Below are positions 10,878 through 24,715 of a stretch of DNA of 24,715 nt, one piece after another. The stretch covers positions 1-24,715 of IMG/VR virus record IMGVR_UViG_3300033145_000481, one strand, 5' to 3'. The position numbers and the translations under genes were made by a program. The notes beneath the pieces are model-generated. The model was not told where the DNA came from. It worked only from the letters and a program-made list of their open reading frames with translations, and ran no database searches. Position 1 is the stretch's first letter; each line of letters starts with the position of its first letter. The stretch comes from a virus.

Positions 10878-10926
10878 ATAACACCCCCACCCTCAGCAAC
10901 TAGGATTGTAGAGAAAGGAGAGCGAG

Positions 10927-11127: not shown

Positions 11128-11141
11128 TAGGGGGTGATGAG

Positions 11142-11856: not shown

Positions 11857-12025
11857 CTGGACTAACACAGAGATAAAGAAGCTGAGATTGAGTCATCGGT
11901 TGAGCCAGGCTGAGTTTGCCGAGAAGCTGGGCGTTGATGCAGGCACGGTAAGTAGGTGGGAGTTGGGTAAGAAGAGACCGAGGTTGGTCTCTCAACGAAA
12001 ATTAGATAGATTGGTGAAGAAATGA
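11849..12025 (+). CDS. XRE-family HTH regulator (Cro-like)
   Basis: 58 codons from ATG 11849 to TGA 12025. Residues ~12-42 read LRLSHRLSQAEFAEKLGVDA then GTVSRWELGKKRP, a full Cro/CI helix-turn-helix: Q-x-x-F-A in helix 2, then the VDAGTVSRWE recognition helix. It is little more than the DNA-binding domain, as in Cro and other minimal regulators. A likely target is the divergent control region, but this is not shown. Confidence 0.85.
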   Translation: MINWTNTEIKKLRLSHRLSQAEFAEKLGVDAGTVSRWELGKKRPRLVSQRKLDRLVKK

Positions 12026-12038
12026 TGGAGGTTTAATA

Positions 12039-12440
12039 ATGCAAAGAGAGTTAAAATTTAGGGCTAGAGCGAAGTCTAATGGTGAATGGGTTTATGGTTA
12101 CTATTCTGTCATAGGTGATACTAGCTTCATATCCTTTATGAACGATAACCACCAATGGCAGGGTATAGAAGTCAACCCCGAGACTGTAGGGCAATACATG
12201 GAACTTCACGATAAACAGGGCAAGGAAATATATGAGGGGGATATAGTCCATAGGATATGGGATGATGGGGGAACAAAAAATTTATTTGCCATTAAATGGG
12301 ATGACAATAAATGCGGTTGGAATATCTCGCCCAAACTATTGGAGGTTTTATGTGAGTCCGCAAAAGGGTCTACTGCACAGGGGTTCGAAGTCATCGGCAA
12401 CATATATGAGCACCCAGAGCTTTTAGAGGTGAAGAAATGA
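12039..12440 (+). CDS. yopX: YopX family protein
   Basis: 133 codons from ATG 12039 behind GGAGG. Typical YopX text: RELKFRARAKSNGEWVYGYY at the N-terminus, VNPETVGQYMELHDKQGKEI, YEGDIV, then AQGFEVIGNIYEHPELL. The D-K-x-G-x-x-I-Y-E-G-D-I and G-N-x-x-E-x-P-E-L-L motifs are diagnostic. YopX proteins are very common in phage early regions, and their function is unknown. It overlaps the next gene (ATGA). Confidence 0.93.
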   Translation: MQRELKFRARAKSNGEWVYGYYSVIGDTSFISFMNDNHQWQGIEVNPETVGQYMELHDKQGKEIYEGDIVHRIWDDGGTKNLFAIKWDDNKCGWNISPKLLEVLCESAKGSTAQGFEVIGNIYEHPELLEVKK

Positions 12441-12973
12441 AACTACTAGGGATAGTTGCCTTTACATCTCTGTTCTTTTACTGGGCTGAGGCACAGGAAA
12501 CTATTCACCTGAATGAGCTTGTTGACTCCCATCAGGACACCATAGCCGAACAGCAGATAGAGATAACTAAGCATCAGGCTGAGATACAATATATTGAGCA
12601 CATGCTCATTCTACAGAGCGATACCATTAGACAGCTTGACAATGAACTAACTAAGGCCAATGAAACCATCGCTACACTAGAAGCCGAGATAGATAGCTAT
12701 GAGTTTATCAGTGATTCTACTTATAAACCCTGGGAGAGTAGAGCCGAACTCAAGGACTGGCTGGCTGATAATGATGTGAGTGAACGGGAATTCTCAGAAG
12801 ATTATGATTGTGATGACTTTGCTATGGCTCTATTCCTTGACGCTCTAGCCGATAACAGGTTAGTCCCGATGCGTGAGGATAAGCACCGATTTAACTTCGC
12901 CGATGTGGGGAATGTGATTTATGCCATTGAGCCACAGACTGATAAAACAGAGAAAGACGGGAGGGTAGATTGA
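12437..12973 (+). CDS. Exported or anchored coiled-coil protein with transglutaminase-like C-terminus
   Basis: 178 codons. The N-terminus MKLLGIVAFTSLFFYWAEAQ is a signal peptide or signal anchor with a possible cleavage after AEA. Residues ~25-85 form a coiled coil rich in E, Q, I and L. The C-terminal part has EDYDCDDFAMALFLDA, then HRFNF, then YAIEPQTD. In transglutaminase-like cysteine peptidases a DCDDFA cysteine, a later H-A-x-N and an EPQTD occur in that order. Here the distance between Cys and His is short, so activity is uncertain. It acts at or outside the membrane. Wall, lysis or superinfection roles are guesses. Confidence 0.65.
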   Translation: MKLLGIVAFTSLFFYWAEAQETIHLNELVDSHQDTIAEQQIEITKHQAEIQYIEHMLILQSDTIRQLDNELTKANETIATLEAEIDSYEFISDSTYKPWESRAELKDWLADNDVSEREFSEDYDCDDFAMALFLDALADNRLVPMREDKHRFNFADVGNVIYAIEPQTDKTEKDGRVD

Positions 12974-13161
12974 AGACCGAAACTTGTATTACTCCTAACG
13001 GACTCCTTGGGCGAATCGTATTGGAGGATGAAGAATACATCTTGATTTCTGACGATAGAAGCAGAATTGACTTCGACCCAATACGGCATATAGTTAGGAT
13101 TTATTCTGATGAAAGTTGGGAAGTTGAATCCTTCCGCCGTGATGGCCAATCCATAAAATGA
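12970..13161 (+). CDS. Small hypothetical protein
   Basis: 63 codons starting with TTG 12970, overlapping the previous stop and preceded by GGGAGGG. It is beta-rich (LLGRIVLEDEEYILISDDRS, then HIVRIYSDESWEVESFRR). No family was recognised. Coupling and a plausible ribosome site support it. Confidence 0.55.
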   Translation: MKTETCITPNGLLGRIVLEDEEYILISDDRSRIDFDPIRHIVRIYSDESWEVESFRRDGQSIK

Positions 13162-13206
13162 AGGGTGGCAGGGCAGGTAGGATTAGATTATTAAAGGAGG
13201 AATAAT

Positions 13207-13467
13207 ATGGACATAGGTAAACACTTTCGGGTGATAACAGACGAACTGAATGTGAAGCTACAAGAACGGTATATGAGCAAACCCAAAGACGGCACTCCAC
13301 CTGTAGAGATGTTTAAGACCATCGGCTACTATACCTCACTGGCTGACTGCTTTAAGGCACTGGTGGATTTGAAGGTCAAAGAGTCGGGGCTGGAAGACCT
13401 GAAGACAGTCATCGCCAAGCTGGATGAGATTTATAAGCTAATAGATAAAGCAGTAAAGGAGAAATAA
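13207..13467 (+). CDS. Conserved phage protein (GYYTSLADCFKALVDLK family)
   Basis: 86 codons starting at ATG 13207 behind AAAGGAGG. It contains MFKTIGYYTSLADCFKALVD then LKVKESGLEDLKTVIAKLDE. The pattern G-Y-Y-x-S-L-x-x-x-x-K-A-L-x-D-L-K followed by a leucine-patterned helix is common in small phage proteins, some annotated DUF5405. The role is unknown. Confidence 0.7.
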   Translation: MDIGKHFRVITDELNVKLQERYMSKPKDGTPPVEMFKTIGYYTSLADCFKALVDLKVKESGLEDLKTVIAKLDEIYKLIDKAVKEK

Positions 13468-13468
13468 A

Positions 13469-13660
13469 ATGGTAATGGCGGGTAAAGCAGAAGCAGTATT
13501 TAAGGAGCTACGGGAGCTAGTCAAGAAGTATCCTGGGATGACGGTGGCGGAATATGAGCGGATGAGGGCGGTAGATGAAGCCCTGATTTGTCAGCAGAGA
13601 GAACTGAACCAACTCAAGACCAGGGTGCATGATTTGGAAACTTTAACAGGGAAATACTAA
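13469..13660 (+). CDS. Small coiled-coil protein
   Basis: 63 codons from ATG 13469 (a second ATG is at 13475) behind AAAGGAGA. It is helical, ending in QQRELNQLKTRVHDLETLTG, a short coiled coil. No family was recognised. Confidence 0.6.
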   Translation: MVMAGKAEAVFKELRELVKKYPGMTVAEYERMRAVDEALICQQRELNQLKTRVHDLETLTGKY

Positions 13661-13671
13661 GGAGGGGTGAT

Positions 13672-13866
13672 ATGCGAGTCTTAACCGACAGACAGATATT
13701 TGGAGACCCTTACGAACCAGCCGTCCAGCCACCACCCTGGGAGGACTGCGAGCTACAGGGACGACACATAAGAAACCGCCCAGCACCAGATACGGCAAGT
13801 ATAAATAAAATTAGCAGGCGGCGGCTTACAGAAAATAGACGAGTATTCAGGAGGTTTGAGATATGA
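13672..13866 (+). CDS. Small basic hypothetical protein
   Basis: 64 codons from ATG 13672 behind GGAGGGGTGAT. It has a proline-rich centre (YEPAVQPPPWEDCELQG) and an arginine-rich C-terminus (SRRRLTENRRVFRRFEI). It overlaps the next gene as ATGA. No family was recognised. Confidence 0.6.
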   Translation: MRVLTDRQIFGDPYEPAVQPPPWEDCELQGRHIRNRPAPDTASINKISRRRLTENRRVFRRFEI

Positions 13867-14033
13867 ACACTAGCATCAAAGACAGAGAAGGGTGGATTAC
13901 TGAGAAGGCAGAGGAGATAGCCGAGGACTTATACTGTTTGGGCAAAGATATTGAAACCATTGCCCATCGATGGGCAGAACAGGAATATGATGATGCGCTG
14001 GCAGACTATGCTGAGAGCAGGGAGGAACGGTAA
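13863..14033 (+). CDS. 56-aa hypothetical protein
   Basis: ATG 13863 to TAA 14033, coupled on both sides (ATGA, TAATG) behind CAGGAGGTTTGAGAT. It reads EGWITEKAEEIAEDLYCLGK then IETIAHRWAEQEYDDALADY. Acidic and helical; no family recognised. Confidence 0.6.
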   Translation: MNTSIKDREGWITEKAEEIAEDLYCLGKDIETIAHRWAEQEYDDALADYAESREER

Positions 14034-14212
14034 TGGCATCGGGAATAGGTGATACTGTTTTAGCAGAACTGAAAGAAATACTAGAGGACTGTGCAAAAAG
14101 AAATGTCAAGCATCTAGGTATTAAATATCTTCAGTTGGATATAGCTAGGCGAGAAGCCTACCATCGAGCTAAGGCTGAAGAATGGAAAAGAAAGAACAGA
14201 GAGGATAGATAA
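14033..14212 (+). CDS. 59-aa hypothetical protein
   Basis: ATG 14033 overlaps the previous stop, with TAA at 14210-14212. It is helical and charged (TVLAELKEILEDCAKRNVKH, ending in EEWKRKNREDR). No family was recognised. Support comes from coupling and composition. Confidence 0.6.
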   Translation: MASGIGDTVLAELKEILEDCAKRNVKHLGIKYLQLDIARREAYHRAKAEEWKRKNREDR

Positions 14213-14213
14213 A

Positions 14214-14858
14214 ATGGAGAGCATTATTCTTGTTAAATCAGTAGAGAAGAAACACAAGGGGAAGGGGAATTGGCTGGAGGTGACAGACGAAAAGGGGTGG
14301 AAGCATAATATATTCCTAAAGGATAAGTTCCCGCTGATTAATGACAGCGTGGGGAAGCACCTGAAACTCACGATAGAAAAGGGGGATGACGACCAATACT
14401 GGAATACGACTGATGTGGAAGAGGTTGACGCCACCGAAGCAGTTAAATCACCTAGCAAATCATATAACGATGAGGATACTAGGCGAAGTATTGAGCGACA
14501 GGTTTCCGCTAAAATTGCCTGTGAATTCTTTAACACCGAAGGGATTGGTGTTGCCCTGACAACTGCAGAGAGGATATACCAATGGATTGCCAGCCCATCC
14601 AACGCTACACAAACAAAGCCGAAGAAGCCAAAGCCCGTAGTAGAGAAGACCATCAAAGCCGAGGATGTAGTGGAGGAGTGGGGGAAGATAGGTAACGAGG
14701 AAGAGCGAGACTTCAAGGACGCTGGGGCGTTTATGGCGGCTTGCTATGGCGAAAAAGGCTACGACAATGCTAAGGTAGAAGAGATACTGGATATGCCACT
14801 AGACAAGGTCACCAACTTCTCGGTGGCTTGGACATTGGTAGTAAACCATAAGGAATAA
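14214..14858 (+). CDS. Probable ssDNA-binding or recombination accessory protein
   Basis: 214 codons from ATG 14214. The N-terminal ~65 residues look like an OB-type barrel (KGNWLEVTDEKGWKHNIFLK, later VGKHLKLTIEKGDDDQYWNT). The middle has DTRRSIERQVSAKIACEFF and TTAERIYQWIASPS. A SIERQ-A-K-A segment followed by an A-x-x-I-x-x-W helix recurs in phage proteins near recombination genes. The C-terminal EERDFKDAGAFMAACYGEKG looks helical. A role with single-stranded DNA in replication or recombination is inferred from the fold guess and position upstream of the replication genes. Confidence 0.5.
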   Translation: MESIILVKSVEKKHKGKGNWLEVTDEKGWKHNIFLKDKFPLINDSVGKHLKLTIEKGDDDQYWNTTDVEEVDATEAVKSPSKSYNDEDTRRSIERQVSAKIACEFFNTEGIGVALTTAERIYQWIASPSNATQTKPKKPKPVVEKTIKAEDVVEEWGKIGNEEERDFKDAGAFMAACYGEKGYDNAKVEEILDMPLDKVTNFSVAWTLVVNHKE

Positions 14859-14876
14859 GATAGAAGGAGAAGACCA

Positions 14877-15350
14877 ATGACTGATAAGACTAGGTATAGA
14901 CATTTAGAGACTGAGTTGGGCAATGAGCACCCACCCTTGATAGACAGAGATGAAATGTTATGTTCTTCACTTAACAGTAATTACTGGTTTGATGCTGTAA
15001 AGGATGTAATCAGAGAGGCTTGTCTCCACCAACGAGACTTTGATATAGCTTGGTATGAAGCTGCTAAAACTGCCTCTATAAAAGAACAAGCCGAGTGTGA
15101 AGAGAAATGTGAGGATGCTTATAATTCTGGGAGTGTTGACTCAATAGCAGACCTACAACGACAATGCCAAGCCAGAGTAGAGAGGATAAAGAGGAAGACA
15201 AAGAAGAGTAAAGTTCTAGCTTATGAAATAGACTCTGATGATTATGTTGTGTCTTATAAACTACTAGAGGCTATCTGGAAGGAGGAGGAAATTGGAGAAG
15301 AGGAAGAGGTGCTAATGCCTTACTCAGGTTCTATTGAGAGAAAAACTTAA
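14877..15350 (+). CDS. Hypothetical protein with paired cysteines
   Basis: 157 codons from ATG 14877 behind GAAGGAGAAG. It is helical. It contains AECEEKCEDAYNSGSVDSIA then QRQCQARVERIKRKTKKSKV, and the C-terminus is very acidic (EEEIGEEEEV). No family was recognised. Confidence 0.6.
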   Translation: MTDKTRYRHLETELGNEHPPLIDRDEMLCSSLNSNYWFDAVKDVIREACLHQRDFDIAWYEAAKTASIKEQAECEEKCEDAYNSGSVDSIADLQRQCQARVERIKRKTKKSKVLAYEIDSDDYVVSYKLLEAIWKEEEIGEEEEVLMPYSGSIERKT

Positions 15351-15394
15351 CCCAGAAAGGAGAGAGTGATGGGCTTCAATAAAGAGAGGAGGAT

Positions 15395-15784
15395 ATGATG
15401 GGTAAATTACTGAGTAAAGAGCAGATAATACAGCTTATAAAGAAAACGGGCTGGGGTTTAGAAAGAGCACACTCCGTAAATCTGGTTTCTAATTATACCA
15501 CAGTAGCCCAAGCCCAGCTAGACCTTGATGAGGAGCGGTTTGATAAGGACCGGGAGGAGATACGGCAGGAGGAGAGGGAGAGGATAAAGAGGATGGCTCT
15601 CCAATCAATAGCCGATGAGCCTGAGTTTCCTAGTAAAATGCCCGATGAGGTATGGCAAGAGCTTGATGGTAATCGTGGCAATGTTGAGAAGGCTATGAAA
15701 GGGGCGGTAAGATTAACCAAGAACGGGATTACCAAGAGGTTTTTAGAAGCACTCAAAACTAAACCATTACAGGAGAAGGAATGA
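15395..15784 (+). CDS. Charged helical hypothetical protein
   Basis: 129 codons starting at ATG 15395 or 15398 behind AGAGAGGAGGAT. A long charged helix (DEERFDKDREEIRQEERERI) follows a small N-terminal domain. A 9-residue open frame (15369-15398) overlaps its start and could couple translation. No family was recognised. Confidence 0.6.
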   Translation: MMGKLLSKEQIIQLIKKTGWGLERAHSVNLVSNYTTVAQAQLDLDEERFDKDREEIRQEERERIKRMALQSIADEPEFPSKMPDEVWQELDGNRGNVEKAMKGAVRLTKNGITKRFLEALKTKPLQEKE

Positions 15785-15808
15785 TGAACAGAAGAAATAG
15801 GAGGCAAC

Positions 15809-16120
15809 ATGCAGCTTACACAAATTGAGTGGGTTAAAAATCCAGACGGCACACAAGGCTATACCTCTAATCCTGTGAAAGGCGAGTGCCCAGTTGGTTG
15901 CTCGTATTGCTATGTTAAACCTTTCCGCTCCCGATACGGCTGGCACAAGGACATTCGCTTCTATCCCGAAGAGCTGGAAGCCATACGGAAGCGCAAGAAG
16001 CCAGCGGGGATATTCCTCGGCTCTACGATTGAGCTATTTCACGACAAGACCATCCAGTATATGCCTGAGATTATGGACAGCACCGCTTCTATCTCCTCAC
16101 CAAGCAACCCCAGAACCTAG
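15809..16120 (+). pseudogene. Gp37/DUF5131-type radical-SAM-like protein, N-terminal fragment
   Basis: Starts at ATG 15809 behind AGGAGG. QIEWVKNPDGTQGYTSNPVK is followed by CPVGCSYCYVKPF, a C-x3-C-x2-C site for a 4Fe-4S cluster, and IFLGSTIELFHD, all as in phage Gp37/Gp68 (DUF5131) proteins. After EIMD the frame becomes TASISSPSNPRT and stops. The correct continuation (QHRFYLLTKQPQNLARF) starts directly in another frame at 16078. About six expected residues (of the type VVRACP) are missing, which together with the phase implies a deletion of about 19 bases at 16077/16078. The enzyme is therefore probably inactive. Confidence 0.7.
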
Positions 16121-16152
16121 CCAGGTTTTCACCCTTCCCCGATAACTGCTGG

Positions 16153-16857
16153 GTGGGGGTGACGGCTACGAATCCTCAAATGTTCCGTGAAGCAGAAATG
16201 TATCTATCAAGGATAGAAGCTAGAGTGCGATATATAAGTGTTGAGCCAATGTTAGAACGATTTTGGTTAGCTGATGTGCACTTCAAGATCAATTGGATAA
16301 TCAACGGTGCCCAGACCAAGCCCTACAAGCCCCCTGAGATAGATTGGGTAGAGGAGATAGTGAGGGCGTGTGATAGGGCTGAGATACCCGTATTTCTTAA
16401 ATACAATCTTGTCGGTCATATCCTAATTGAAGAACCTTTTTATAAAAATGACGGCTCTGCCCAAGTGAGAAAGACACCACTCAAGCAAGGCACTAAGCCA
16501 CTAAAGCGTGGACGGGTAAAGGGAGTATCACCCAAGCAGAAGGTCAAGAACAGGGAATGGAACGCCCTCGTTGCTCATCTAATAGAGCATAGGGCATATT
16601 TTAGAGATGAGCTAGACGGGAGCTTACCAGATTGGCGAGGATTACAGGGGCATCACATTATTAAGCGGTCTCAGGGCGGGACTAACACCGCAGGTAATTG
16701 CTTTATATTAAACGCCATCAATCACGACCACACTAAATACGGCTCAGGTATCCCGATAAAAGCAGAGCAGGCATTGTTTGAGGTGGCTCTACTCAATAAG
16801 GAACACGGCATACACCCAGAGCTTATTGGTAAAGAAGTGTTGGAGATGAAAGGTTGA
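16153..16857 (+). CDS. Gp37/DUF5131-type C-terminal part fused to HNH domain
   Basis: The frame is open from 16078 (QHRFYLLTKQ); the first usable start is GTG 16153. It continues the Gp37-type protein: WVGVTATNPQMFREAEMYLS, RYISVEPMLE, INWIINGAQTKP, and IPVFLKYN. After that it reads TPLKQGTKPLKRGRVKGVSP, the typical basic start of phage HNH proteins (KR-TPLK), and then GLQGHHIIKRSQGGTNTAGN and HDHTKYG, an HNH nuclease core. So an HNH gene appears fused in frame to the back of the Gp37 gene without a stop. The HNH part could still be made from an internal start. Confidence 0.65.
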   Translation: MGVTATNPQMFREAEMYLSRIEARVRYISVEPMLERFWLADVHFKINWIINGAQTKPYKPPEIDWVEEIVRACDRAEIPVFLKYNLVGHILIEEPFYKNDGSAQVRKTPLKQGTKPLKRGRVKGVSPKQKVKNREWNALVAHLIEHRAYFRDELDGSLPDWRGLQGHHIIKRSQGGTNTAGNCFILNAINHDHTKYGSGIPIKAEQALFEVALLNKEHGIHPELIGKEVLEMKG

Positions 16858-16901
16858 CAATGTTACCTAGTCTTGTTGACAATGGCGAGTGTGATATTAG
16901 T

Positions 16902-16930
16902 TTGACAACTTACTATAGGTGTGTTAGTAT
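16902..16930 (+). promoter_or_regulatory. Internal rightward promoter before zinc ribbon / replication genes
   Basis: TTGACA at 16902-16907, exact 17-base spacer, TAGTAT at 16925-16930. It would start transcription near 16937, just upstream of AGAGAGGGGG and GTG 16953, and feed the replisome organiser. Two further TTGACA copies (16856 and 16875) lie upstream. Confidence 0.55.
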
Positions 16931-16952
16931 GAGAGTAGAGAGGGGGTATGTT

Positions 16953-17081
16953 GTGCTGAAATGTCCAGAGTGTAAATCAGCTAAGATAACAAAGTTAGGC
17001 TTTACTTGGCGTTCCCGCAAGAAGGTTCAGCGATGGCGTTGTCTAAATTGCGGCAGAACATTTACAGAAGAGAGACAATAA
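16953..17081 (+). CDS. Zinc-ribbon protein
   Basis: 42 residues from GTG 16953, six bases after AGAGAGGGGG. The same frame is open back to a TTG at 16854, but the promoter at 16902-16930 lies inside that extension, so I prefer the short form. It reads LKCPECKSAKITKLGFTWRS and then WRCLNCGRTFT, a CxxC...CxxC ribbon like the N-terminal ribbon of IS1-type and other transposases. Here it stands alone, ending in a TAATG overlap with the replisome organiser. It may bind the origin or act with the replication protein. Confidence 0.6.
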   Translation: MLKCPECKSAKITKLGFTWRSRKKVQRWRCLNCGRTFTEERQ

Positions 17082-17839
17082 TGGGCAAACGCACTTGGGT
17101 GAAACTATACTGCGATAAGTGGTTAGATAGTTCTTTGCGCCAAGAAAGCCCTGCTGTTCGTGGTGTTTTTGCCGACCTTTTAGCCCTCTGCGGTGGGGGG
17201 AATTACAGCGAGGAGGGATGCATAAAAATACGGAATCGTGTCGGATTCAATAACTTGCAACTAGAAAAACTGCTAAACTTGACCCCGCAAATGTGGGGAA
17301 AATGTAAAATGCGACTGATAAAAACTGATAGAATTGAGGTAGCAGATGACAACATTTTAACCATAAAAAACTGGGGGAAATACCAATCTGAATACGAAAG
17401 GCAGAAACCACAACGAACTAAAAGTGCGGGAGAAAGTGCGGGAGAAAGTGCGGGGGATAGTAAGGTAGAAAGTGCGGGTATAGATTATAGATATAAGACT
17501 ATAGATATATATAGTGTTTTTAAGTATTGGAATTTCTTAAAAATAAAGACCCACAAAAAGCTAACCGATGGGATAAAGCAAAGGATACAAAGTAGGTTAA
17601 AAGATTACTCTATTGATGAGATAGAGCGGATGATGTTTAATTACGCCGAGGTGTTGAACAACCCTCAGTGTGAGCTTATGAACTATCGGTGGACATTGGA
17701 GACTTTCCTTACGGGCACAGACAGGCTGGAGAAATTTAGTGACCTCGCTGTCGCCATCCAGAATTATACCAAGAATAAGCCCGACAGTAACAGCACAAAG
17801 TCTGGCAGAAAAGTAGGAAAGGATTGGGCGGTAAGATGA
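17081..17839 (+). CDS. Replisome organiser / replication initiation protein
   Basis: 252 codons from ATG 17081. The N-terminal ~105 residues (GKRTWVKLYCDKWLDSSLRQ... IEVADDNILTIKNWGKYQSE) have the winged-helix look of phage replisome organisers. A linker with SAGESAGESAGDS follows, then a C-terminal helical domain (YWNFLKIKTHKKLTDGIKQR, later YRWTLETFLTGTDRLEKFSD), the form found at the end of many phage replication proteins that bring in DnaB. The linker DNA consists of 12-bp repeats followed by an AT-rich stretch, a candidate origin. It overlaps the methyltransferase as ATGA. Confidence 0.75.
   Translation: MGKRTWVKLYCDKWLDSSLRQESPAVRGVFADLLALCGGGNYSEEGCIKIRNRVGFNNLQLEKLLNLTPQMWGKCKMRLIKTDRIEVADDNILTIKNWGKYQSEYERQKPQRTKSAGESAGESAGDSKVESAGIDYRYKTIDIYSVFKYWNFLKIKTHKKLTDGIKQRIQSRLKDYSIDEIERMMFNYAEVLNNPQCELMNYRWTLETFLTGTDRLEKFSDLAVAIQNYTKNKPDSNSTKSGRKVGKDWAVR
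17421..17550 (+). other. Candidate replication origin (iterons plus AT-rich stretch)
   Basis: AAAGTGCGGGAG occurs at 17421 and 17433, AAAGTGCGGGGG at 17445, and AAAGTGCGGG again at 17469, all in 12-base phase. Directly after them 17479-17550 is strongly A+T rich, with TATAGAT three times. Iterons next to an AT-rich unwinding stretch inside the initiator gene match the lambda O / ori layout. Confidence 0.6.
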
Positions 17840-18489
17840 AGCCTTATTACCAAGATAAATATGCCACGATATATCACGGAGACTGTAGGGAGATATTGCC
17901 CCAGTTGCCGAAGTGTGATTTAGTGCTGACTGACCCGCTGTATGGGATAGGTGAGGCTCACGGGAAAAACTTATCACGAGGTAAGTGGGCAAATCCCAAA
18001 GATTATGGCGTGGAGTGTTGGGACGATGTAACAGTGGACTTTACCTTACTTGAACTTGCTATTAGCAAATCAACTAACCAAATTATTTGGGGTGGGAACT
18101 ACTATCCATTACCCCCAACCTCGTGCTGGCTGGTGTGGGATAAGGAGAACGGCAATAATGATTTTGCTGATTGTGAACTAGCATGGACATCTTTCAAATC
18201 TGCTGTGCGAATATTTAGGTTTAGATGGGCAGGGATGTTACAGGGTGATATGAAGAACAAAGATTATCGTTACCACCCAACACAAAAACCAACGGCACTA
18301 TTTAATTGGGTGATGGGGCGATATTCAAAAACGACTGACCTAATCCTAGACCCTTTCCTCGGTAGCGGAACAACAGCCTTCTGCGCCAAGAAACTCAACA
18401 GAAGATGTATCGGCATAGAGATAGAGGAGAAGTATTGCGAGATAGCAGCGAAAAGGTTAAGCCAAAGCGTAATGGAGTTGAAGATATGA
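17836..18489 (+). CDS. DNA methyltransferase (N6-adenine/N4-cytosine, beta type)
   Basis: 217 codons from ATG 17836, overlapping the previous stop; the TTG at 17824 is less likely. Motif IV is LVLTDPLYGIG near residue ~35, where DPPYG is usual, so the second proline is replaced by leucine. The target-recognition part lies in the middle (IIWGGNYYPLPPTSCWLVWD). The C-terminal HPTQKP and LDPFLGSGTTAFCAKKLNRR are motif X-like and motif I, the S-adenosylmethionine site, followed by GIEIEEKY. The order IV then I marks the beta class. The role could be protection from restriction. The leucine in motif IV may reduce activity. Confidence 0.85.
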   Translation: MKPYYQDKYATIYHGDCREILPQLPKCDLVLTDPLYGIGEAHGKNLSRGKWANPKDYGVECWDDVTVDFTLLELAISKSTNQIIWGGNYYPLPPTSCWLVWDKENGNNDFADCELAWTSFKSAVRIFRFRWAGMLQGDMKNKDYRYHPTQKPTALFNWVMGRYSKTTDLILDPFLGSGTTAFCAKKLNRRCIGIEIEEKYCEIAAKRLSQSVMELKI

Positions 18490-18731
18490 CTAAAGAGCAG
18501 TTGGAAGAGGAGATAAAAAATCAGTTTAGAGGCTTTGCCCCCGATGTCTGTAATCAGTGCGGGGAAGACCTAACACGTAATGTAATTTGCGTAGAAGATA
18601 GTTTTGCTAAGGCAAACCTCCGCCTCTTTGAACAATACTGTAAAGACAAAAGGATAGTGCAGGTGGTGGAGGGGAAGTTGCCCGAAAGAATAAAGTGGGT
18701 GACGTTAAAACCTGTGAGGTTAGTAGAATGA
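18486..18731 (+). CDS. Small protein, paralogue A (EQYC...VVEGK...PVRLVE)
   Basis: 81 codons from ATG 18486, overlapping the methyltransferase stop. It starts MTKEQLEEEIKNQFRG, then PDVCNQCGEDL, RLFEQYCKDKRIVQVVEGKL and ends KPVRLVE. It matches the protein at 18877-19185 at both ends and in the VVEGK core, although the middles differ. The function is unknown; the CxxC may bind zinc. Confidence 0.7.
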   Translation: MTKEQLEEEIKNQFRGFAPDVCNQCGEDLTRNVICVEDSFAKANLRLFEQYCKDKRIVQVVEGKLPERIKWVTLKPVRLVE

Positions 18732-18850
18732 AATACGGATTATGCACAAAATGTAAGAGAAAGGGAATGTATAGGATTAAATCTAGCCGTGTCGGTTATA
18801 CCACCTATAAATGCCGTTATTGCGGCGCAAAGGTGACTCATTCCAGTTAG
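18728..18850 (+). CDS. 40-aa zinc ribbon
   Basis: ATG 18728 overlaps the previous stop, with TAG at 18848-18850. It reads YGLCTKCKRKGMYRIKSSRV and then YKCRYCGAKVTHSS. Two CxxC pairs ~21 residues apart form a minimal ribbon. It lies between the two paralogues. Confidence 0.65.
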   Translation: MKYGLCTKCKRKGMYRIKSSRVGYTTYKCRYCGAKVTHSS

Positions 18851-18876
18851 AGGAGATAAAGCAAGGAGGTTAACAA

Positions 18877-19185
18877 ATGAGTATGACTAAAGAGCAGTTG
18901 GGGGAGAAGACAGCAAGGATTATCTTTGAGGCTGGATGTTCTGACGATTGGGATGTTCGCCCATACTGCGTCAAGGAAGGATGGCTTAAAGACGCAGACA
19001 AAGTTCTCCAAACTTTCCAAGACTACTGCGATGAAAACAACATCAAGCAGGTGGTGGAGGGGAAAGAGTTGACTAAACCAAACCCAAATGCCTGCGGTCA
19101 ATACCTTAGTGGGTATTGTGAGGCTCGTCAAGACATGCTCAAAGCTGGCTATGTAAAGGTAGAGCCAGTGAGGTTAGTAGAATGA
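18877..19185 (+). CDS. Small protein, paralogue B
   Basis: 102 codons from ATG 18877 behind AAGGAGG (a second ATG is at 18883). It reads MTKEQLGEKTARIIFEAGCS, VLQTFQDYCDENNIKQVVEG, and ends VKVEPVRLVE, paralogous to 18486-18731. It has an added cysteine-containing segment (NACGQYLSGYCEARQDML). It overlaps the helicase start as ATGA. Its position before DnaB may mean a link to replication, but this is unproven. Confidence 0.7.
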   Translation: MSMTKEQLGEKTARIIFEAGCSDDWDVRPYCVKEGWLKDADKVLQTFQDYCDENNIKQVVEGKELTKPNPNACGQYLSGYCEARQDMLKAGYVKVEPVRLVE

Positions 19186-20480
19186 CTAAAATCCCGAAAG
19201 ACCTTGACGCTGAAGAAGCAGTATTAGGCTCACTTCTGATAGATGGTGGAGCAATAGAGAAGATTAGCTCGCTTTCTAAAGATGATTTCTTCTCTGAACG
19301 CAACCAATGGATTTATGATGCCTGTCTTTCAGTAGTGGGAATAAACCAGATTACAGTTGCGCAGGAGCTTGACAGGAAGAATAGACTAAGGGACTGCGGC
19401 GGTGCTGCCTATCTAAGCCACCTGATTTCAATAGTCCCCACTTCGTTAGACATTGAACACTATGCCGAGATAGTCAGAAGGTTATCGGCAAGCCGTCAGC
19501 TAATAAACGCTGGTAACCAGATTACCTCACTAGGTTATGAAGCTGACCCTGATGTTGAGGAGAGTTTTGCCAGTGCGGGAGAGATAATAGCCAAGCTAAA
19601 GGGTGGGATAGTCCCACCACCAGACCTAATTAAACCAGAAGACATATCAAACAAAATGATGGAGTTTACCAGCAAACCTGACAAGCGGTTGACGATTGAC
19701 TGGGGCTGGATTGACTTAGATAATATAACAGGTGGGTTATATCCTGGGGAGTTGACTATCATTGGGGCAAGACCATCAGTGGGCAAGTCCGAGATTATGC
19801 TAGAGACAGCACTCAGTCTAGCCCAGCGTTACCAGCCGTCCTTGTTTGTTAGCCTAGAGATGTCTCTGAATATGCTTGTTGAGCGTCTAATTGCGATAAT
19901 GACGGGGATACCGATAATGTCCATTCGTCATTATGATTTAACACCAGAGCAGCAGGGGATGGTAGCAACGGCAGCGGGCGAGCTGGCTGAACTACCCCTT
20001 TACCTCTTAACGGGTATTCGGTCAACAGCGAACATAGCCGACAACGCTAGACGGATGAAAGAAAAACACGGATTGGAAGTTGTCTTTGTTGACTACCTCC
20101 AGATATTACCCGACTGCCATAACAATAAATTCGGTAATTCAAAGAATGAACGAGTGGGCTATGCCACACAAATGTTAAAGTCGCTGTCAGTTGAGATTGA
20201 GATACCCCTAGTTCTTGGTTGTCAGTTAAATCGCCAGCTAGAATATCGGGCAGTGAAGACACCGCAATTATCAGACCTCAGAGATAGTGGTGAAGTAGAG
20301 CAGATAGTTGACAATGTTTTATTCCTCCACCGTGAGGAGATGTACGACCCCAAGCCAGAAAATCAGGGCATACTGGAAATCAAGCAGGCGAAACACCGAC
20401 AATTAGGGGACAAGCCACCAGTAAAATTACAGTGGTTGGCAAAAGCGCACAAGTATGTAAATTTCAGTCGGGAGGTGTAA
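19182..20480 (+). CDS. dnaB: Replicative DNA helicase DnaB
   Basis: 432 codons. The N-terminal domain starts IPKDLDAEEAVLGSLLIDGG, as in DnaB. The RecA-like domain has Walker A GARPSVGKSE (~200-209), SLEMSL, Walker B VVFVDYLQIL (~285-294), the sensor LGCQLNRQLE, and the C-terminal DLRDSGEVEQIVDNVLFLHR with the arginine-finger region. Length is close to bacterial DnaB. It unwinds DNA at the phage fork. No separate helicase loader is visible; the organiser at 17081-17839 may do the loading. Confidence 0.95.
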   Translation: MTKIPKDLDAEEAVLGSLLIDGGAIEKISSLSKDDFFSERNQWIYDACLSVVGINQITVAQELDRKNRLRDCGGAAYLSHLISIVPTSLDIEHYAEIVRRLSASRQLINAGNQITSLGYEADPDVEESFASAGEIIAKLKGGIVPPPDLIKPEDISNKMMEFTSKPDKRLTIDWGWIDLDNITGGLYPGELTIIGARPSVGKSEIMLETALSLAQRYQPSLFVSLEMSLNMLVERLIAIMTGIPIMSIRHYDLTPEQQGMVATAAGELAELPLYLLTGIRSTANIADNARRMKEKHGLEVVFVDYLQILPDCHNNKFGNSKNERVGYATQMLKSLSVEIEIPLVLGCQLNRQLEYRAVKTPQLSDLRDSGEVEQIVDNVLFLHREEMYDPKPENQGILEIKQAKHRQLGDKPPVKLQWLAKAHKYVNFSREV

Positions 20481-20481
20481 A

Positions 20482-20727
20482 ATGGACACATTACCGTTGA
20501 GTGATGAGATAAGAGAGGGGATATATAGAATAATTATTGCCCAAGATTATAGAGATTATAGCTCACTAGAACAATTTGATTGGGAAAGAGACTTGGTTGG
20601 GAAATTGGTGTCCTATCTTCACTCTCGTAATGTAGTAATCCAGACCAAAATATCCAGACACCTAGATGATAGAGATAATAGTGATACAGGCTTTATTTAT
20701 GAATCACTGATTGAGGTAGAGAAATGA
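20482..20727 (+). CDS. Small hypothetical protein
   Basis: 81 codons from ATG 20482 behind GGGAGGTGTAA. It contains EIREGIYRIIIAQDYRDYSS and DLVGKLVSYLHSRNVVIQTK. No family was recognised. It ends in an ATGA overlap. Confidence 0.65.
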   Translation: MDTLPLSDEIREGIYRIIIAQDYRDYSSLEQFDWERDLVGKLVSYLHSRNVVIQTKISRHLDDRDNSDTGFIYESLIEVEK

Positions 20728-20888
20728 ATAAACAGAAAGAACTATGCGAGATGTGCGGGAAAAGGGCTGCGGTGCATTATCTATGGGAATTGAGACATCC
20801 TGATAGTAAAGAGAGGCATCGGCTTTGCTCTCTATTATGTGTTGCAAGATGGGCTAAGATGGAGATAGGGGTAAGTGTGAAAATATGA
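20724..20888 (+). CDS. 54-aa zinc-finger-like protein
   Basis: ATG 20724 to TGA 20888, coupled on both sides. It reads KELCEMCGKRAAVHYLWELR then RHRLCSLLCVARWAKM. CxxC and CxxxC pairs ~30 residues apart could bind zinc. No family was recognised. Confidence 0.65.
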   Translation: MNKQKELCEMCGKRAAVHYLWELRHPDSKERHRLCSLLCVARWAKMEIGVSVKI

Positions 20889-21334
20889 GCAGACTAGACG
20901 AATTACTTAAACGACATCAAGGGATTAAGAACCCCCCGTTAGCACAAGATGAGCTAGAGGAGTTACAACGGCTTCAGTATAAGGTGGATAAAAAGAGGGC
21001 GGGGGTAGTTAAAGAAAAGGATTTTCAAAGACAGATTGAGGATTTAGCTCATACCCTCGGCTGGACTATAGCACATTTCCGCACAGCTCGTACTATTAGC
21101 GGTTGGATGACCGCAGTATCAGGGGATGGTGTTGGTTTCCCAGACTGTGTGCTAGTGAGAAGGGATAGACTCATATTCGCTGAGCTTAAGTCAGAGAAGG
21201 GCAAGTTGTCTGAATCACAAGAGGGATGGCTTGATGCATTGATAGAAGTAGCCAAGTCTACTAACCACCAAGAAATACAGGTTTATGTATGGAAACCTCA
21301 TATGTTTGATGAGATTTGTGGCATATTGAAATAG
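20885..21334 (+). CDS. VRR-NUC nuclease
   Basis: 149 codons from ATG 20885. EKDFQRQIEDLAHTLGW is followed by HFRTARTISGW, then GVGFPDCVLVRRDRLIFAEL with KSEKGKLSESQEGWLDAL. The G-x-P-D...(15)...E-x-K core and following S-x-x-Q-x-x-W-L are the PD-(D/E)xK site of VRR-NUC proteins, which act as structure-specific nucleases in phage recombination or replication. Confidence 0.9.
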   Translation: MSRLDELLKRHQGIKNPPLAQDELEELQRLQYKVDKKRAGVVKEKDFQRQIEDLAHTLGWTIAHFRTARTISGWMTAVSGDGVGFPDCVLVRRDRLIFAELKSEKGKLSESQEGWLDALIEVAKSTNHQEIQVYVWKPHMFDEICGILK

Positions 21335-21346
21335 AGGAGGGGTGAT

Positions 21347-21487
21347 ATGCTTGTGGGCTATATTTTAATCTACTACAGCTACGAGGGAGTCAAAGCCAAT
21401 GGCTATGACGACTATGGCAATCCGCTATATTATTTTTGGAGTAAAGGAGGTATAAATGGACATAAAGGAACTAACACTAGGGGATGA
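21347..21487 (+). CDS. 46-aa hydrophobic/aromatic protein
   Basis: ATG 21347 behind GAGGAGGGGTGAT, stop at 21485-21487. It reads MLVGYILIYYSYEGVKANGY and continues DDYGNPLYYFWSKGG. Rich in tyrosine, with a hydrophobic start. It overlaps the next gene by 32 bases and contains that gene's AAAGGAGG. Supported mainly by the strong ribosome site. Confidence 0.5.
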   Translation: MLVGYILIYYSYEGVKANGYDDYGNPLYYFWSKGGINGHKGTNTRG

Positions 21488-21725
21488 GGAGATAAAGGAA
21501 GTTAAGGCTAGGGTTGGGTTGACTGATGAAGGTGACGGTATATTTAGTATGCATATCTATGATGAGGAGAGAGCCATAAGCATTGCCACCGCAAAGAAGA
21601 TATTTAAGCTGCTAGATGACAGGACATACGGGTTTGATGATGGTGATGGCGTGATGGTTTATACGACTGTCTGGGAAGAGGGGGAGTGGGAAGAGATGAG
21701 AAAATTACTGGAGAAGGAGGGGTGA
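21456..21725 (+). CDS. Small acidic hypothetical protein
   Basis: 89 codons from ATG 21456 behind AAAGGAGG. It contains MDIKELTLGDEEIKEVKARV and AISIATAKKIFKLLDDRTYG, then a DDGDG stretch. Acidic; no family recognised. It overlaps the next ATG by one base. Confidence 0.65.
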   Translation: MDIKELTLGDEEIKEVKARVGLTDEGDGIFSMHIYDEERAISIATAKKIFKLLDDRTYGFDDGDGVMVYTTVWEEGEWEEMRKLLEKEG

Positions 21726-21937
21726 TGAAGGATAATTGTAGTTTCAGGATGGTAAATACTGGTGAGGGGTTTGTTGAACTTGCTAGGATTGATGCGGAAA
21801 CATCTTGCCTAGAGATAAACTACAGCAGAATCTTCACTGGGCATTGGTGGCAAAGAATTGTACCTGCAATAAAAACAACTTGGTGTATTCTTAGGGCAAG
21901 AGATATGGGTATACTTGGCAAGAAGGGAGGAGATTGA
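21725..21937 (+). CDS. Small hypothetical protein
   Basis: 70 codons from ATG 21725 behind GGAGGGGTG; the open frame extends back to 21686, but this start is better. It contains FVELARIDAETSCLEINYSR and HWWQRIVPAIKTTWCILRAR, the second part fairly hydrophobic. No family was recognised. Confidence 0.6.
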   Translation: MKDNCSFRMVNTGEGFVELARIDAETSCLEINYSRIFTGHWWQRIVPAIKTTWCILRARDMGILGKKGGD

Positions 21938-22098
21938 TGGTAGATATTAACAGTTTATGTATCGGAATTTTAATGGGGATGCCTATTGGTATAGCCTCTT
22001 GGGCGGTGGGGAAAATAATCCAGCGAAGATATCAACAGAAGCACGGATGCTTTAATGTTTGTTATCACTGTGGGAAGCCACCATTTGAGGGAAAATGA
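21937..22098 (+). CDS. 53-aa membrane protein with CxxC tail
   Basis: ATG 21937 overlaps the previous stop, with TGA at 22096-22098. SLCIGILMGMPIGIASWAVG is a transmembrane segment. RRYQQKHGCFNVCYHCGKPP follows, with CxxxCxxC that could bind metal on the cytoplasmic side. Confidence 0.6.
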   Translation: MVDINSLCIGILMGMPIGIASWAVGKIIQRRYQQKHGCFNVCYHCGKPPFEGK

Positions 22099-22112
22099 AA
22101 GGAGGTGATGGA

Positions 22113-22295
22113 ATGACTAGATGGTTTGCTTGGTTTCGGTTTAAGGACTTACATCCATCGTTTAGAGTAGTGCTTGCTGAAAGCCTGGAAGTGGCTGAAA
22201 TGCTGGCTAATGATTTGGCTACCAGAAACAAAGTTAGACTCATAGGCATAATCATAGCATCAGAACAGTTCAATCCAGTAGAGAAGGAGGAGTGA
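22113..22295 (+). CDS. Small hypothetical protein
   Basis: 60 codons from ATG 22113; AAAGGAGGTGAT ends a few bases upstream, which decides against the ATG at 22095. It reads TRWFAWFRFKDLHPSFRVVL and LEVAEMLANDLATRNKVRLI. No family was recognised; a compact alpha/beta fold is possible. Confidence 0.6.
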   Translation: MTRWFAWFRFKDLHPSFRVVLAESLEVAEMLANDLATRNKVRLIGIIIASEQFNPVEKEE

Positions 22296-22299
22296 TGAG

Positions 22300-22512
22300 A
22301 TGAAAGATTGGGAATATAGATTTGTGCTAACTGGCATTCCGATAGAAGTTGATGGTATTCTTTATAAGGTTAGGGTGGTAGCTCACCCCGACTCCATTAA
22401 GGCAATGATTGGAATAAAGATGCTAGAGCTTGAGGAGATACCCAGAAAGGGTAAGACAAACCCCAAAGTGGGTAACGAAAAGAGCAAGGCAAACCCCATT
22501 GGTGCTGTGTAA
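22300..22512 (+). CDS. Small hypothetical protein
   Basis: 70 codons starting at ATG 22300, behind AAGGAGGAGTGATGAG. It contains YRFVLTGIPIEVDGILYKVR and VVAHPDSIKAMIGIKMLELE, then a basic tail with GKTNPKVGNEKSKANP, an imperfect repeat. Coupled to the next gene (TAATG). Confidence 0.6.
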   Translation: MKDWEYRFVLTGIPIEVDGILYKVRVVAHPDSIKAMIGIKMLELEEIPRKGKTNPKVGNEKSKANPIGAV

Positions 22513-22736
22513 TGATAAGCGAAGAAGCGAAGACAAAGGCTGTAGGGCAGTTCAAACTCCAACTCACTGGTGTTATGGATGTGTTCGATATGTATGGGAT
22601 GGGGCACGAAATCCCCTATGCTAAAGAAATCATTACCGAACTCGCCCTGCAGTTGCATAGGAGACTTATGGGCGAAGACCATCCGATAGACTTCAACCAC
22701 GCCGAGAAGCGATATGAGAGGAGAAGAGCTATATGA
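22512..22736 (+). CDS. Small hypothetical protein
   Basis: 74 codons from ATG 22512. It contains KTKAVGQFKLQLTGVMDVFD and YAKEIITELALQLHRRLMGE, helical. No family was recognised. It overlaps the next gene as ATGA. Confidence 0.6.
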   Translation: MISEEAKTKAVGQFKLQLTGVMDVFDMYGMGHEIPYAKEIITELALQLHRRLMGEDHPIDFNHAEKRYERRRAI

Positions 22737-22948
22737 TTAAGAAAAAGATGATTGAAGTGAGGGTTTGTGATAAGTGTGGAAGGGAATTAGAGACGGACTT
22801 TGCTGTATGCCCCGTATGCCACCGTGATTTGTGTGCGTGGTGTCGTGCTCAGTACATTGAGCCTGCCCCCAATAGCCAATTGTGTGTGTCTATAACATAT
22901 TATTGCACAGAGCATTTACCTGCCAATAAAGAGGGAAGAAATAAATGA
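22733..22948 (+). CDS. Zinc-binding protein
   Basis: 71 codons from ATG 22733. VRVCDKCGRELETDFAVCPV is followed by CHRDLCAWCRAQYI and later YYCTEH. Several CxxC pairs suggest a double or cross-brace zinc fold, RING- or B-box-like in spacing. The function is unknown. It overlaps the phosphoesterase start as ATGA. Confidence 0.7.
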   Translation: MIKKKMIEVRVCDKCGRELETDFAVCPVCHRDLCAWCRAQYIEPAPNSQLCVSITYYCTEHLPANKEGRNK

Positions 22949-23991
22949 AGAAACTATCGAAGGAGCGGAAGTTCTGGGAAGAAGTAGTTGCTAAATATCC
23001 TACTGTTCAGGAAGCTAAGGAGGCGTTAGATTGTGGCGAACGCACCATCTACAACCACCTTAGAGACCACAGGTTAAAGTTTAAGCCCATTATCACTGAC
23101 AGTTTACCAGAAGCAAAAGAGGTTGAGATAAAACATGTCCCATATCCCAAGCTGAATATGAAGCCATTCAAAGCACCGAAGGCACGGAGGGATACGGAGG
23201 ATATGGGGCTGGTTATTGCCGACCCTCACTTCGGGAAGGTTACTGAGAGTTACAATCTAGACATCGCGGGTGCTCGTCTAGATTATCTTCTGGATAGTGC
23301 GATGACTATTATAAACTTACACAGACCCATCCGAAAGTTATGGGTATTCCTTACGGGTGATAATGTTCAGGGCGAGAATGTTTATCAAGGTTCGAAGGTC
23401 GGAGATGTAGAGTGTGGTGCTTATGAGCAAATCCATTCATACGCAATACCCATCTTCTCTAAGTTTCTTACCACTCTTTCTCAGGGCGTAACAGGGGTGG
23501 ATGTAATCGGAGTGAATGGCAATCACGGAGTTTACGAAAAAGTTGCGCCGACTAGAACAAACTGGGATGGCTTCTTCTACTCTGGGCTAGAGTCTGCGAT
23601 GGTAAACCAGAAGAGCATTAACATTTATCCGCCGAAGTGGTTTTACCAGCTAGTTAATATCAAGGGGTTCAGGTTCTTCCTTATACACGGCAACCAATGC
23701 CCCGCCACGCAGGGCATCCCGCTAGTAGGGATGAGACGGAAGATGCAGGAATGGTATGCGTATGTTGGCGGTTTTAATTATGCCTATGCGGGTCATTTCC
23801 ACTCAGAGGCAAAAGACCAAGTAAACTCCTTGTTACTGGTGATAGCTGGGCGTTGGAGAAAGTTGGCAGAGCATCAGAGCCGAAGGCTATCTGCTTCGGG
23901 ATACACGGACACTATGGGCGGACATTTAACTACCAGCTACACACCGACAGGCTCTTCCTCCCCAAGCCATTTAATGAACCCGAGGGTATAG
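22945..23991 (+). CDS. Calcineurin-like metallophosphoesterase (main frame)
   Basis: The frame starts at ATG 22945. An N-terminal helical part (TVQEAKEALDCGERTIYNHL) resembles a helix-turn-helix. The catalytic domain has VIADPHFGK, FLTGDNVQGENV, VIGVNGNHGVYE, FFLIHGNQ and YAGHFHSEA, the five metal-binding motifs (D-x-H, G-D, G-N-H, H, G-H-x-H) in order. After SEAKDQVNSLLL this frame turns into unlikely text. The true end (VTGDSWALEKVGRASEPKAI) is in the -1 frame up to 24026. Likely a nuclease or phosphodiesterase of the phage DNA-metabolism set. The catalytic core is complete before the shift. Confidence 0.8.
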   Translation: MKKLSKERKFWEEVVAKYPTVQEAKEALDCGERTIYNHLRDHRLKFKPIITDSLPEAKEVEIKHVPYPKLNMKPFKAPKARRDTEDMGLVIADPHFGKVTESYNLDIAGARLDYLLDSAMTIINLHRPIRKLWVFLTGDNVQGENVYQGSKVGDVECGAYEQIHSYAIPIFSKFLTTLSQGVTGVDVIGVNGNHGVYEKVAPTRTNWDGFFYSGLESAMVNQKSINIYPPKWFYQLVNIKGFRFFLIHGNQCPATQGIPLVGMRRKMQEWYAYVGGFNYAYAGHFHSEAKDQVNSLLLVIAGRWRKLAEHQSRRLSASGYTDTMGGHLTTSYTPTGSSSPSHLMNPRV

Positions 23992-24026
23992 TAGATGTAA
24001 GTAAATCTCAGAGGAGCAGTGCCTGA
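23826..24026 (+). pseudogene. Phosphoesterase C-terminus in shifted frame (copy 1)
   Basis: In the -1 frame the text reads KLLVTGDSWALEKVGRASEP, then FGIHGHYGRTFNYQLHTDRL and FLPKPFNEPEGIVDVSKSQ, ending at TGA 24024-24026. This is the expected C-terminus of phage phosphoesterases (a G-D/S-W-x-L segment, then F-G-x-H-x-x-x-G). One base is missing upstream, in AAAA (23811-23814) or AAA (23823-23825). Its last part is matched by a second, diverged copy at 24491-24568. Confidence 0.65.
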
Positions 24027-24460
24027 TGATTAAGCTTAGACTCCAACTCCTGTATTCTTTTGGCCTTGGCTTGAAAAACCAGCGAGTGTTTGGGGGCTGG
24101 GAGGGCAACGAGATTGGCTGGTCTATTGTCGTCTGGAATACCATTAAGGTGGTGAATATGCCAACTCTTTGGCAGCGATTTATTGTGAGTAGTTTCCCAA
24201 ACAATCACATGCTCAAATACATATCCGCTTTTGTTTGCCCTTGGATGACTAGGGCGCATAAGGAAGATGTATCCAGCCCCAGTTCGCACCCTACCTCCCT
24301 TCCAACGATAAGCCCTTTCTCCTCGTGGGTAAATTCTATGCTTCCTACAATTGAGGAAACCAAAGTTAACGGGAACCCCACATACGGGGCAGGGGTGCTT
24401 GTGCTTCTCTCGGTATTGGCGTCTATATTCTCGCAAATCTTCCTTGTTATTCCAATCCAT
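24008..24460 (-). CDS. HNH homing endonuclease-like protein, opposite to neighbours
   Basis: 150 codons from ATG 24460 behind AGAGGTGAAGAA; a GTG at 24478 would add six residues. The N-terminal zinc part is CPVCGVPVNFGFLNCRKH. Then RWKGGRVRTGAGYIFL, FEHVIVWETTHNKSLPKSWH, and IHHLNGIPDDNRPANLVALP form the HNH core with the E-H-x-x-x-W-E and H-H-x-N-G-x-x-x-D-N-R-x-x-N-L motifs. It is transcribed against all its neighbours from its own promoter, and it sits between two copies of the phosphoesterase 3' end. A mobile homing endonuclease is the best explanation. Confidence 0.88.
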   Translation of the reverse strand: MDWNNKEDLREYRRQYREKHKHPCPVCGVPVNFGFLNCRKHRIYPRGERAYRWKGGRVRTGAGYIFLMRPSHPRANKSGYVFEHVIVWETTHNKSLPKSWHIHHLNGIPDDNRPANLVALPAPKHSLVFQAKAKRIQELESKLNHQALLL

Positions 24461-24478
24461 TTCTTCACCTCTATTCAC

Positions 24479-24507
24479 ATTATACCATACAATTATAAAC
24501 TTGACAA
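24479..24507 (-). promoter_or_regulatory. Promoter of the inverted HNH gene
   Basis: On the minus strand TTGTCA (24502-24507), a 17-base spacer ending in TGG, then TATAAT (24479-24484). The HNH gene thus has its own promoter, placed inside or next to the second phosphoesterase tail. Confidence 0.7.
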
Positions 24508-24568
24508 GCTAGGTGACAAGTTTTTGCCCAAGACATTTGACGAGCCAGAGGGAATAATTACAGTTTAA
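24491..24568 (+). pseudogene. Remnant of phosphoesterase 3' end (copy 2)
   Basis: Reading from 24491: NYKLDKLGDKFLPKTFDEPE then GIITV and TAA at 24566-24568. It matches the phosphoesterase tail NYQLHTDRLFLPKPFNEPEG-IVDV at about 60% of positions. It has no start of its own. It looks like the original end of the gene, cut off by the insert carrying the HNH gene and copy 1. Confidence 0.65.
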
Positions 24569-24577
24569 GGAGTAGAT

Positions 24578-24715
24578 ATGCCAGATATAGGATATATAGT
24601 TGGCTGGGTAGCTGTTGGATTTGGTATCGCTGTACCAATTCCGCAATTACTAAAGATTAAACGGGATGGCAGGGTGGATGGTATATCGGTTCACACTTAT
24701 ATATTTTTGGTTTGC
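24578..24715 (+). CDS. PQ-loop membrane protein, N-terminal part (runs off right edge)
   Basis: ATG 24578 behind TTAAGGAGTAGAT. The 46 visible residues begin MPDIGYIVGWVAVGFGIAVP and continue IPQLLKIKRDGRVDGISVHT and YIFLVC. A hydrophobic helix ending in P-Q-L-x-K-I, a short basic loop, then G-I-S and a second helix is the PQ-loop motif of SemiSWEET/SWEET and related small carriers. It would lie in the inner membrane. The substrate cannot be guessed. Confidence 0.6.
   Translation, partial: MPDIGYIVGWVAVGFGIAVPIPQLLKIKRDGRVDGISVHTYIFLVC

Follow-up and report, generated by a model that had tools for sequence, protein, structure and literature searches.

The virus record analysed here (the window; the whole linear record G000, 24,715 bases) stops inside an open reading frame that starts at 24578, and on balance we favour, with some confidence, the reading that this frame is the 5' part of a gene for a PQ-loop facilitator with a single repeat, carried by phages, which probably acts as a homodimer and has an altered substrate, the window copy being assumed to continue like its relatives. 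The PQ-loop match at the window end is itself a confirmed observation. Pfam PF04193 matches residues 4–45 of the fragment (E 6.6e-8, 32.6 bits at a cut-off of 22), and a six-frame scan of the record with this model pointed to a single place, the same ORF. A profile built without the window, from the five phage relatives then identified, gave the fragment 47.9 bits, against 8.9 bits for the best of 1000 shuffled fragments (972 of which received a score), and compared with 34.5 bits for a profile of four close Omnitrophota proteins and 18.8 bits for a profile of 31 classical-type proteins. The first-pass annotation, made from the letters alone, had read the 46 residues as a PQ-loop half and had pointed out PIPQLLKI, a basic loop and GIS; the model and profile scores agree with this reading, and all of these elements are present as described. 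PHROGs, phrog_25992 included, yielded no match for the fragment, none was listed with Pfam PF03083 MtN3_slv, and NCBIfam NF037968 SemiSWEET_2 gave 16.3 bits, below its cut-off of 80.

The end of the window and the exonuclease–HNH site

The window has PHROG matches to a terminase, a DnaB helicase, a methyltransferase and an exonuclease, and is therefore taken as phage. The carrier gene lies at the right end of a plus-strand gene block, nine bases past the stop codon of an exonuclease gene end (Table 1). Its 46 residues end ahead of helix 3 and of both substrate-pocket residues considered below: position 13 (LbSemiSWEET numbering) is Gly, and the record end precedes position 48. A 49-residue query of the viral collection produced 21 pattern matches, none of them confirmed as a relative; as the record ends at 24715 as well, helix 3 of the window copy is unreadable. 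DNA comparison of window positions 22945–24715 with the phage records gave no match.

Table 1. Features at the right end of the window and small ORFs at the carrier start in related contigs (positions without a prefix are those of the window)
Feature	Position	Strand	Evidence or remark
Exonuclease (metallophosphoesterase-type) ORF	22945..23991	+	phrog_284, E 3.6e-28; homology changes frame at ~23829
Exonuclease 3' end, copy 1, other frame	23829..24026	+	Matches the L002 exonuclease end (59 residues, 66% identical)
HNH endonuclease gene	24008..24478	-	Pfam HNH_3, E 3.1e-10; phrog_20891, E 2.1e-19
Exonuclease 3' end, copy 2, ~26 codons and stop	24488..24568	+	Local alignment to the end of the L002 exonuclease, score 75
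Likely ribosome-binding site (GGAG) for the carrier	24569..24572	+	5 bases before ATG; inferred from the sequence
PQ-loop / SemiSWEET-like carrier gene, 5' part	24578..24715	+	46 codons, open to the record end
Carrier fragment layout: first helix (contains the PQ motif), basic loop, GIS, beginning of the second helix	24578..24715	+	
Small ORF overlapping the carrier start	L002:6910-7074		
Small ORF overlapping the carrier start	L010:5783-6004		
Small ORF overlapping the carrier start	L011:5835-5996		
Small ORF overlapping the carrier start	L012:511-726		

The exonuclease of the window is 73% identical over 233 residues to that of a related virus contig (L002), and its homology continues in a second frame from ~23829 to 24005. 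Window positions 23829–24568 hold an HNH gene between two exonuclease 3' ends, with a frameshift just before, at a site where the homologues in L002 and L003 are intact; the end of copy 1 recurs in copy 2 in a different version. The arrangement resembles an HNH insertion by which the second gene end was brought in or left behind. It does not have the layout that an intron would show, because copy 1 of the exonuclease already has its own end. The first-pass annotation had placed the carrier after an HNH-disrupted gene: the genes do adjoin, but the HNH gene, on the minus strand, sits between two different exonuclease ends. Elsewhere in the window, a single ORF (16153–16857) has the end of a DUF5131 domain (Pfam E 1.2e-12) linked to a weak, sub-cut-off HNH match (E 0.0017), which may reflect a fusion or an HNH insertion.

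The frameshifted exonuclease next to the carrier, together with a record that simply ends within the ORF, would fit a window copy that is a decaying or mis-assembled fragment beside a damaged gene. We regard this as very improbable: all 46 codons are open and preceded by a likely ribosome-binding site, and dN/dS between the window and L002 over 40 codons is 0.15, at a high dS of 3.4.

A metallophosphoesterase-type gene is found at most 378 bases upstream of the carrier in four of the seven loci, those of the window, L002, L010 and L013, with spacings of 9 bases in the window, 164 in L002, and also 53 and 378. The upstream gene of L010 is 42% identical to the L002 exonuclease, and that of L013 matches PF00149 with E 4.7e-4, just under the cut-off. 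Such varying spacing is consistent with an add-on gene, and to this extent the suggested cargo region is possible, though not necessarily as cargo of the HNH element.

A small ORF of 53–73 codons with a shared motif overlaps the carrier start in four of the six complete loci (Table 1) and may be a functional partner. The same ORF is present in L003, from a record that gave no PQ-loop match. Neither the window nor L013 showed it, and L069 gave only a chance-level match (E 0.82).

Complete relatives and their predicted fold

With the window exonuclease as a lead, five virus contigs were identified; a PQ-loop scan of these contigs and the window found the domain in two of the six records, the window and the L002 contig. 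The latter carries a complete 78-codon PQ-loop gene starting at 7071, separated from the exonuclease by the 164 bases mentioned above, with one small ORF between. Scans with this protein retrieved L010 (85% identity), L011 (73%), L012 (68%) and L013 (62%), and a phage-only alignment added L069, 49% identical to L012. Thus, complete relatives are available from six virus contigs (L002, L010, L011, L012, L013, L069), each of 78–99 residues followed by a stop codon. PF04193 scores exceed the 22-bit cut-off in L002 (35.3), L010 (30.7), L012 (39.7), L013 (33.4) and L069 (25.3), and the score of L011, 14.8 bits, is below it. The glutamine of the PQ motif (Gln20) is kept in all seven proteins, the window fragment included; the motif is intact in the window, L002, L010, L012 and L013, and its proline is replaced by alanine in L011 and L069.

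The structure of L002, the only relative that was folded (the others were assessed by alignment), was predicted as a single chain from eight aligned rows. The model has helices at residues 2–24, 32–52 and 55–77, with a mean pLDDT of 85.4. Foldseek against the PDB ranked 15 SemiSWEET chains and AtSWEET13 as its top 16 rows, with probability 1.00 for 12 of them; the best E was 8.8e-3, so that no match reached E <= 0.001. A VIA comparison with the SemiSWEET 5uhs gave Z 11.9 and rmsd 2.3 over 77 aligned residues, and that with the mitochondrial pyruvate carrier gave a Z close to those of SemiSWEETs (Z 10.3, rmsd 2.0, 72 aligned). Because helical bundles can reach such Z by arrangement alone, the family assignment rests on sequence as much as on fold. 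In sequence, the eight-row profile matches solved SemiSWEETs (4rng, E 9.2e-8; 9kax, E 2.2e-7), and its PDB relatives at E up to 0.1 are seven, all of them SemiSWEETs or a SWEET. The mitochondrial pyruvate carrier, which also has a three-helix carrier subunit but is a heterodimer, is not among these seven.

The three-helix unit that the first-pass annotation had called SemiSWEET-like is thereby recovered in complete relatives, as a predicted fold for L002 only; this relative neither lacks the third helix nor belongs to another membrane family, the two outcomes that had been named as contrary to that call. PnuC proteins, vitamin transporters that are also carried by phages, consist of two three-helix units. 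Their layout of two such units with a linker helix is absent from the complete relatives, which stop after 78–99 residues.

The size and the number of helices would also suit a holin, and one may suppose a phage membrane protein for lysis or for a change of the host envelope that only resembles a carrier. Its gene stands at the right end of the plus-strand block of the window, and in L012 it is soon followed by large opposite-strand ORFs, which appear structural by eye only (one of them, of 754 residues, has no Pfam match). We nevertheless judge this explanation to have little chance of being correct, given that PQ-loop models match significantly over most of the unit, that Gln20 is kept in all seven proteins, and that bacteria have chromosomal sister proteins.

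The substrate pocket

All pocket positions are given in LbSemiSWEET numbering, to which the phage proteins align without gaps across helices 2 and 3. In SemiSWEETs, transporters of very small size, Trp48 and Asn64 bind sugar, mutation to Ala lowers uptake, and the two residues are described as highly conserved in general (PMC5972207). The phage relatives share with bacterial SemiSWEETs (LbSemiSWEET 4qnc/5uhs, TySemiSWEET 4rng, EcSemiSWEET 4x5m, BjSemiSWEET 9kax) a single PQ-loop repeat of three helices, the length of about 80 residues, the gapless alignment and the PQ glutamine, but differ from them in the pocket. Trp48 is replaced by Tyr in all six complete phage proteins, as it is in the four closest Omnitrophota proteins, whereas the remaining 26 of 30 Omnitrophota proteins read, all four solved structures and a plasmid SemiSWEET keep it. 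At position 64, Asn gives way to Gln in five of the six (L069 keeps Asn) and is present in 30 out of 30 Omnitrophota proteins; these 30 are not a random sample, as they were chosen as the best-scoring loci from the 95 with a match among 285 genomes. In addition, Thr13 is replaced by Gly, Tyr51 by His, Gly52 by Ala, and Ile60 by Phe in the six complete proteins. The Omnitrophota proteins L024–L027 resemble the phage proteins in Tyr48, Gly13 (Ser in L027), Ala52 and Phe60, and differ from them in keeping Asn64 and in having Arg rather than His at position 51.

SemiSWEET_2 (NF037968) assigns 43.2 bits to L002 (E 3.2e-11) and also 43.2 bits to L013, below the curated cut-off of 80, compared with 118.8 bits for the plasmid SemiSWEET. 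MtN3_slv (PF03083, sugar efflux; cut-off 23.7) is just exceeded by L012 (24.2), and L002 (22.2), L011 (21.5), L069 (22.9), L013 (17.7) and L010 (16.7) score below it. Judged from the aligned sequences, the complete phage relatives appear to have a SemiSWEET-like fold, but not the sugar-binding features of SemiSWEETs; the L012 score just above the MtN3_slv cut-off speaks against this.

Could these proteins still be true SemiSWEET sugar facilitators acquired from a host, with Tyr and Gln holding glucose or another sugar? The significant SemiSWEET_2 match of L002, the L012 score above the MtN3_slv cut-off and the restriction of the seven PDB sequence relatives to SemiSWEETs or a SWEET speak for it, and the two substitutions retain an aromatic ring and an amide. 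Since the replacements of Trp by Tyr and of Asn by Gln are mild, a sugar substrate keeps some probability. Still, the score of L002 amounts to 43.2 bits where 80 are required, the tryptophan lost in six out of six phage proteins is maintained in the Omnitrophota majority, the solved structures and the plasmid protein, and several other pocket positions change together, so that we hold a sugar facilitator to be unlikely. The sugar traffic envisaged by the first-pass annotation is unsupported, the sugar-binding Trp and Asn being altered in the complete relatives (the window ends before both). With the pocket altered, the cargo of the facilitator that we favour is probably another small polar metabolite, and not glucose or sucrose.

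Distribution, cellular kin and possible role

A tree of 42 proteins (six phage proteins, the window, four Omnitrophota and 31 Trp48-type proteins) separates the first three sets from the Trp48-type proteins with support of 100/100. The window pairs with L013 (94/81), and L069 stands apart from the other phage proteins, all seven coming together in 40% of bootstrap trees. An earlier tree, also of 42 rows, which lacked the window and L069 and included two distant cultured-phage proteins, separates the same 31 proteins (100/99). Selection was assessed for 28 pairs, of which 15 were saturated and 13 computable, with dN/dS of 0.08–0.44; in 12 of these 13, dS was at least 1.47. The only pair in a good dS range, L002 and L010 (dN 0.118, dS 1.163, dN/dS 0.10), points to purifying selection on the carrier genes.

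The closest cellular proteins found are 45–47% identical to L002. A genome scan with two degenerate patterns, a narrow net, gave 109 matches, of which two loci were confirmed, both from Omnitrophota, and a profile search of 285 genomes of this phylum added two further strong Tyr48-type loci. The resulting four metagenome-assembled genomes (L024–L027) encode PQ-loop proteins of a Tyr48 type, which differ from the Trp48-type SemiSWEETs read in 26 other loci of the phylum; in the first two (L014, L015), the gene stands alone between opposite-strand genes on bacterial contigs. These closest cellular proteins hint at Omnitrophota as a possible host. When window positions 5000–24715 were compared with 384 Omnitrophota genomes, with only two candidate places scored in each genome among the matches listed, short DNA matches appeared in 20 of the 384 (best E 1.6e-5), and the eight match loci fetched showed no CRISPR array (no 20-mer was present three times).

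The genes are uncommon in catalogued phages, as the first-pass annotation had supposed: a tblastn search of 50,697 phage records with the window fragment and the L002 and L012 proteins found nothing, and L069 gave one weak match without a fitting frame. That the carrier is borne by phages also holds, a terminase being matched in four of the seven PQ-loop-bearing virus records, the window included; this is not proof alone, as the same model also matches 11 of 14 control genomes. A search of the other seven virus records gave no relative of the window terminase, whose patterns have no match in the viral collection. The carriers thus seem to sit in otherwise divergent phages, the picture that a gene passed among such phages would give.

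Several weaker matches were considered. An Omnitrophota query reached five records of cultured phages (E 0.02–0.03). Hypothetical proteins of Methylophilales phage Melnitz (L054:2483-2746) and Synechococcus phage BUCT-ZZ01 (L055:2465-2743), both of them cultured Kyanoviridae, form a group in the tree and bear a very faint resemblance to SemiSWEETs. They were rejected as relatives, having Pro-Thr for Pro-Gln and a very long branch, and were left out of the second tree and of the relative count; neither has a PQ-loop match at E up to 1, and SWEET, MtN3 and PQ-loop are not mentioned in the Melnitz paper (PMC9004378). Of two gut-contig matches, L077, on an unverified scaffold, looks by eye like a SemiSWEET of the Trp/Asn type, and L078 showed no open frame that fits. 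L013 weakly matches a membrane protein that PHROGs files under moron genes (phrog_15604, E 6e-4) and a cystine-transporter model (E 0.0055).

A virus with a PQ-loop gene is not new. BFVD entries from giant viruses, Myoviridae sp. ctrf010 and uncultured Caudovirales are already named PQ loop or SemiSWEET; they have a similar predicted fold (TM-score 0.64–0.80 by query length, Foldseek E 0.04 to 2.4) at 14–26% identity (32% for the unnamed entry I1TK12). Several relatives also weakly match phrog_25992, a family of unknown function (L012, E 3.5e-6; L011, 4e-6; L002, 5e-5; L010, 0.003; L013, 0.04). The apparent novelty is a phage lineage in which the pocket is rebuilt consistently and which has a small sister group on bacterial chromosomes. 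Among the open-licence papers searched, no title or abstract beginning dealt with a phage PQ-loop carrier, and no paper on SWEET13 with N76Q was found.

By analogy with SemiSWEETs, two copies of the facilitator would pair in the host inner membrane, and the dimer would swing from inward-open to outward-open and back about the PQ kink (PMC5972207). A small solute would then move down its gradient with no energy source required, and a carrier made in infection would open an extra leak or uptake route, helping replication.

The dimeric action of SemiSWEETs (PMC5972207) and the heterodimer formed by the mitochondrial pyruvate carrier, a structural neighbour (PMC12007569), also allow for a phage protein that forms a pair with a PQ-loop carrier of the host, poisoning or re-tuning it, e.g., excluding other phages or redirecting host traffic. 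With the closest cellular proteins only 45–47% identical to L002, such interference appears highly unlikely. A broader proposal, which we put forward tentatively, is that half-transporters of a phage-adapted lineage, in which the most conserved SemiSWEET pocket has been rebuilt, move a non-sugar metabolite in infection, or pair with a host half-transporter and change its cargo.

For the single-repeat facilitator that we favour, a phage family that keeps the fold but alters the sugar residues would offer natural variants with which to test what sets the substrate, and it points to metabolite traffic as something that these phages may alter.
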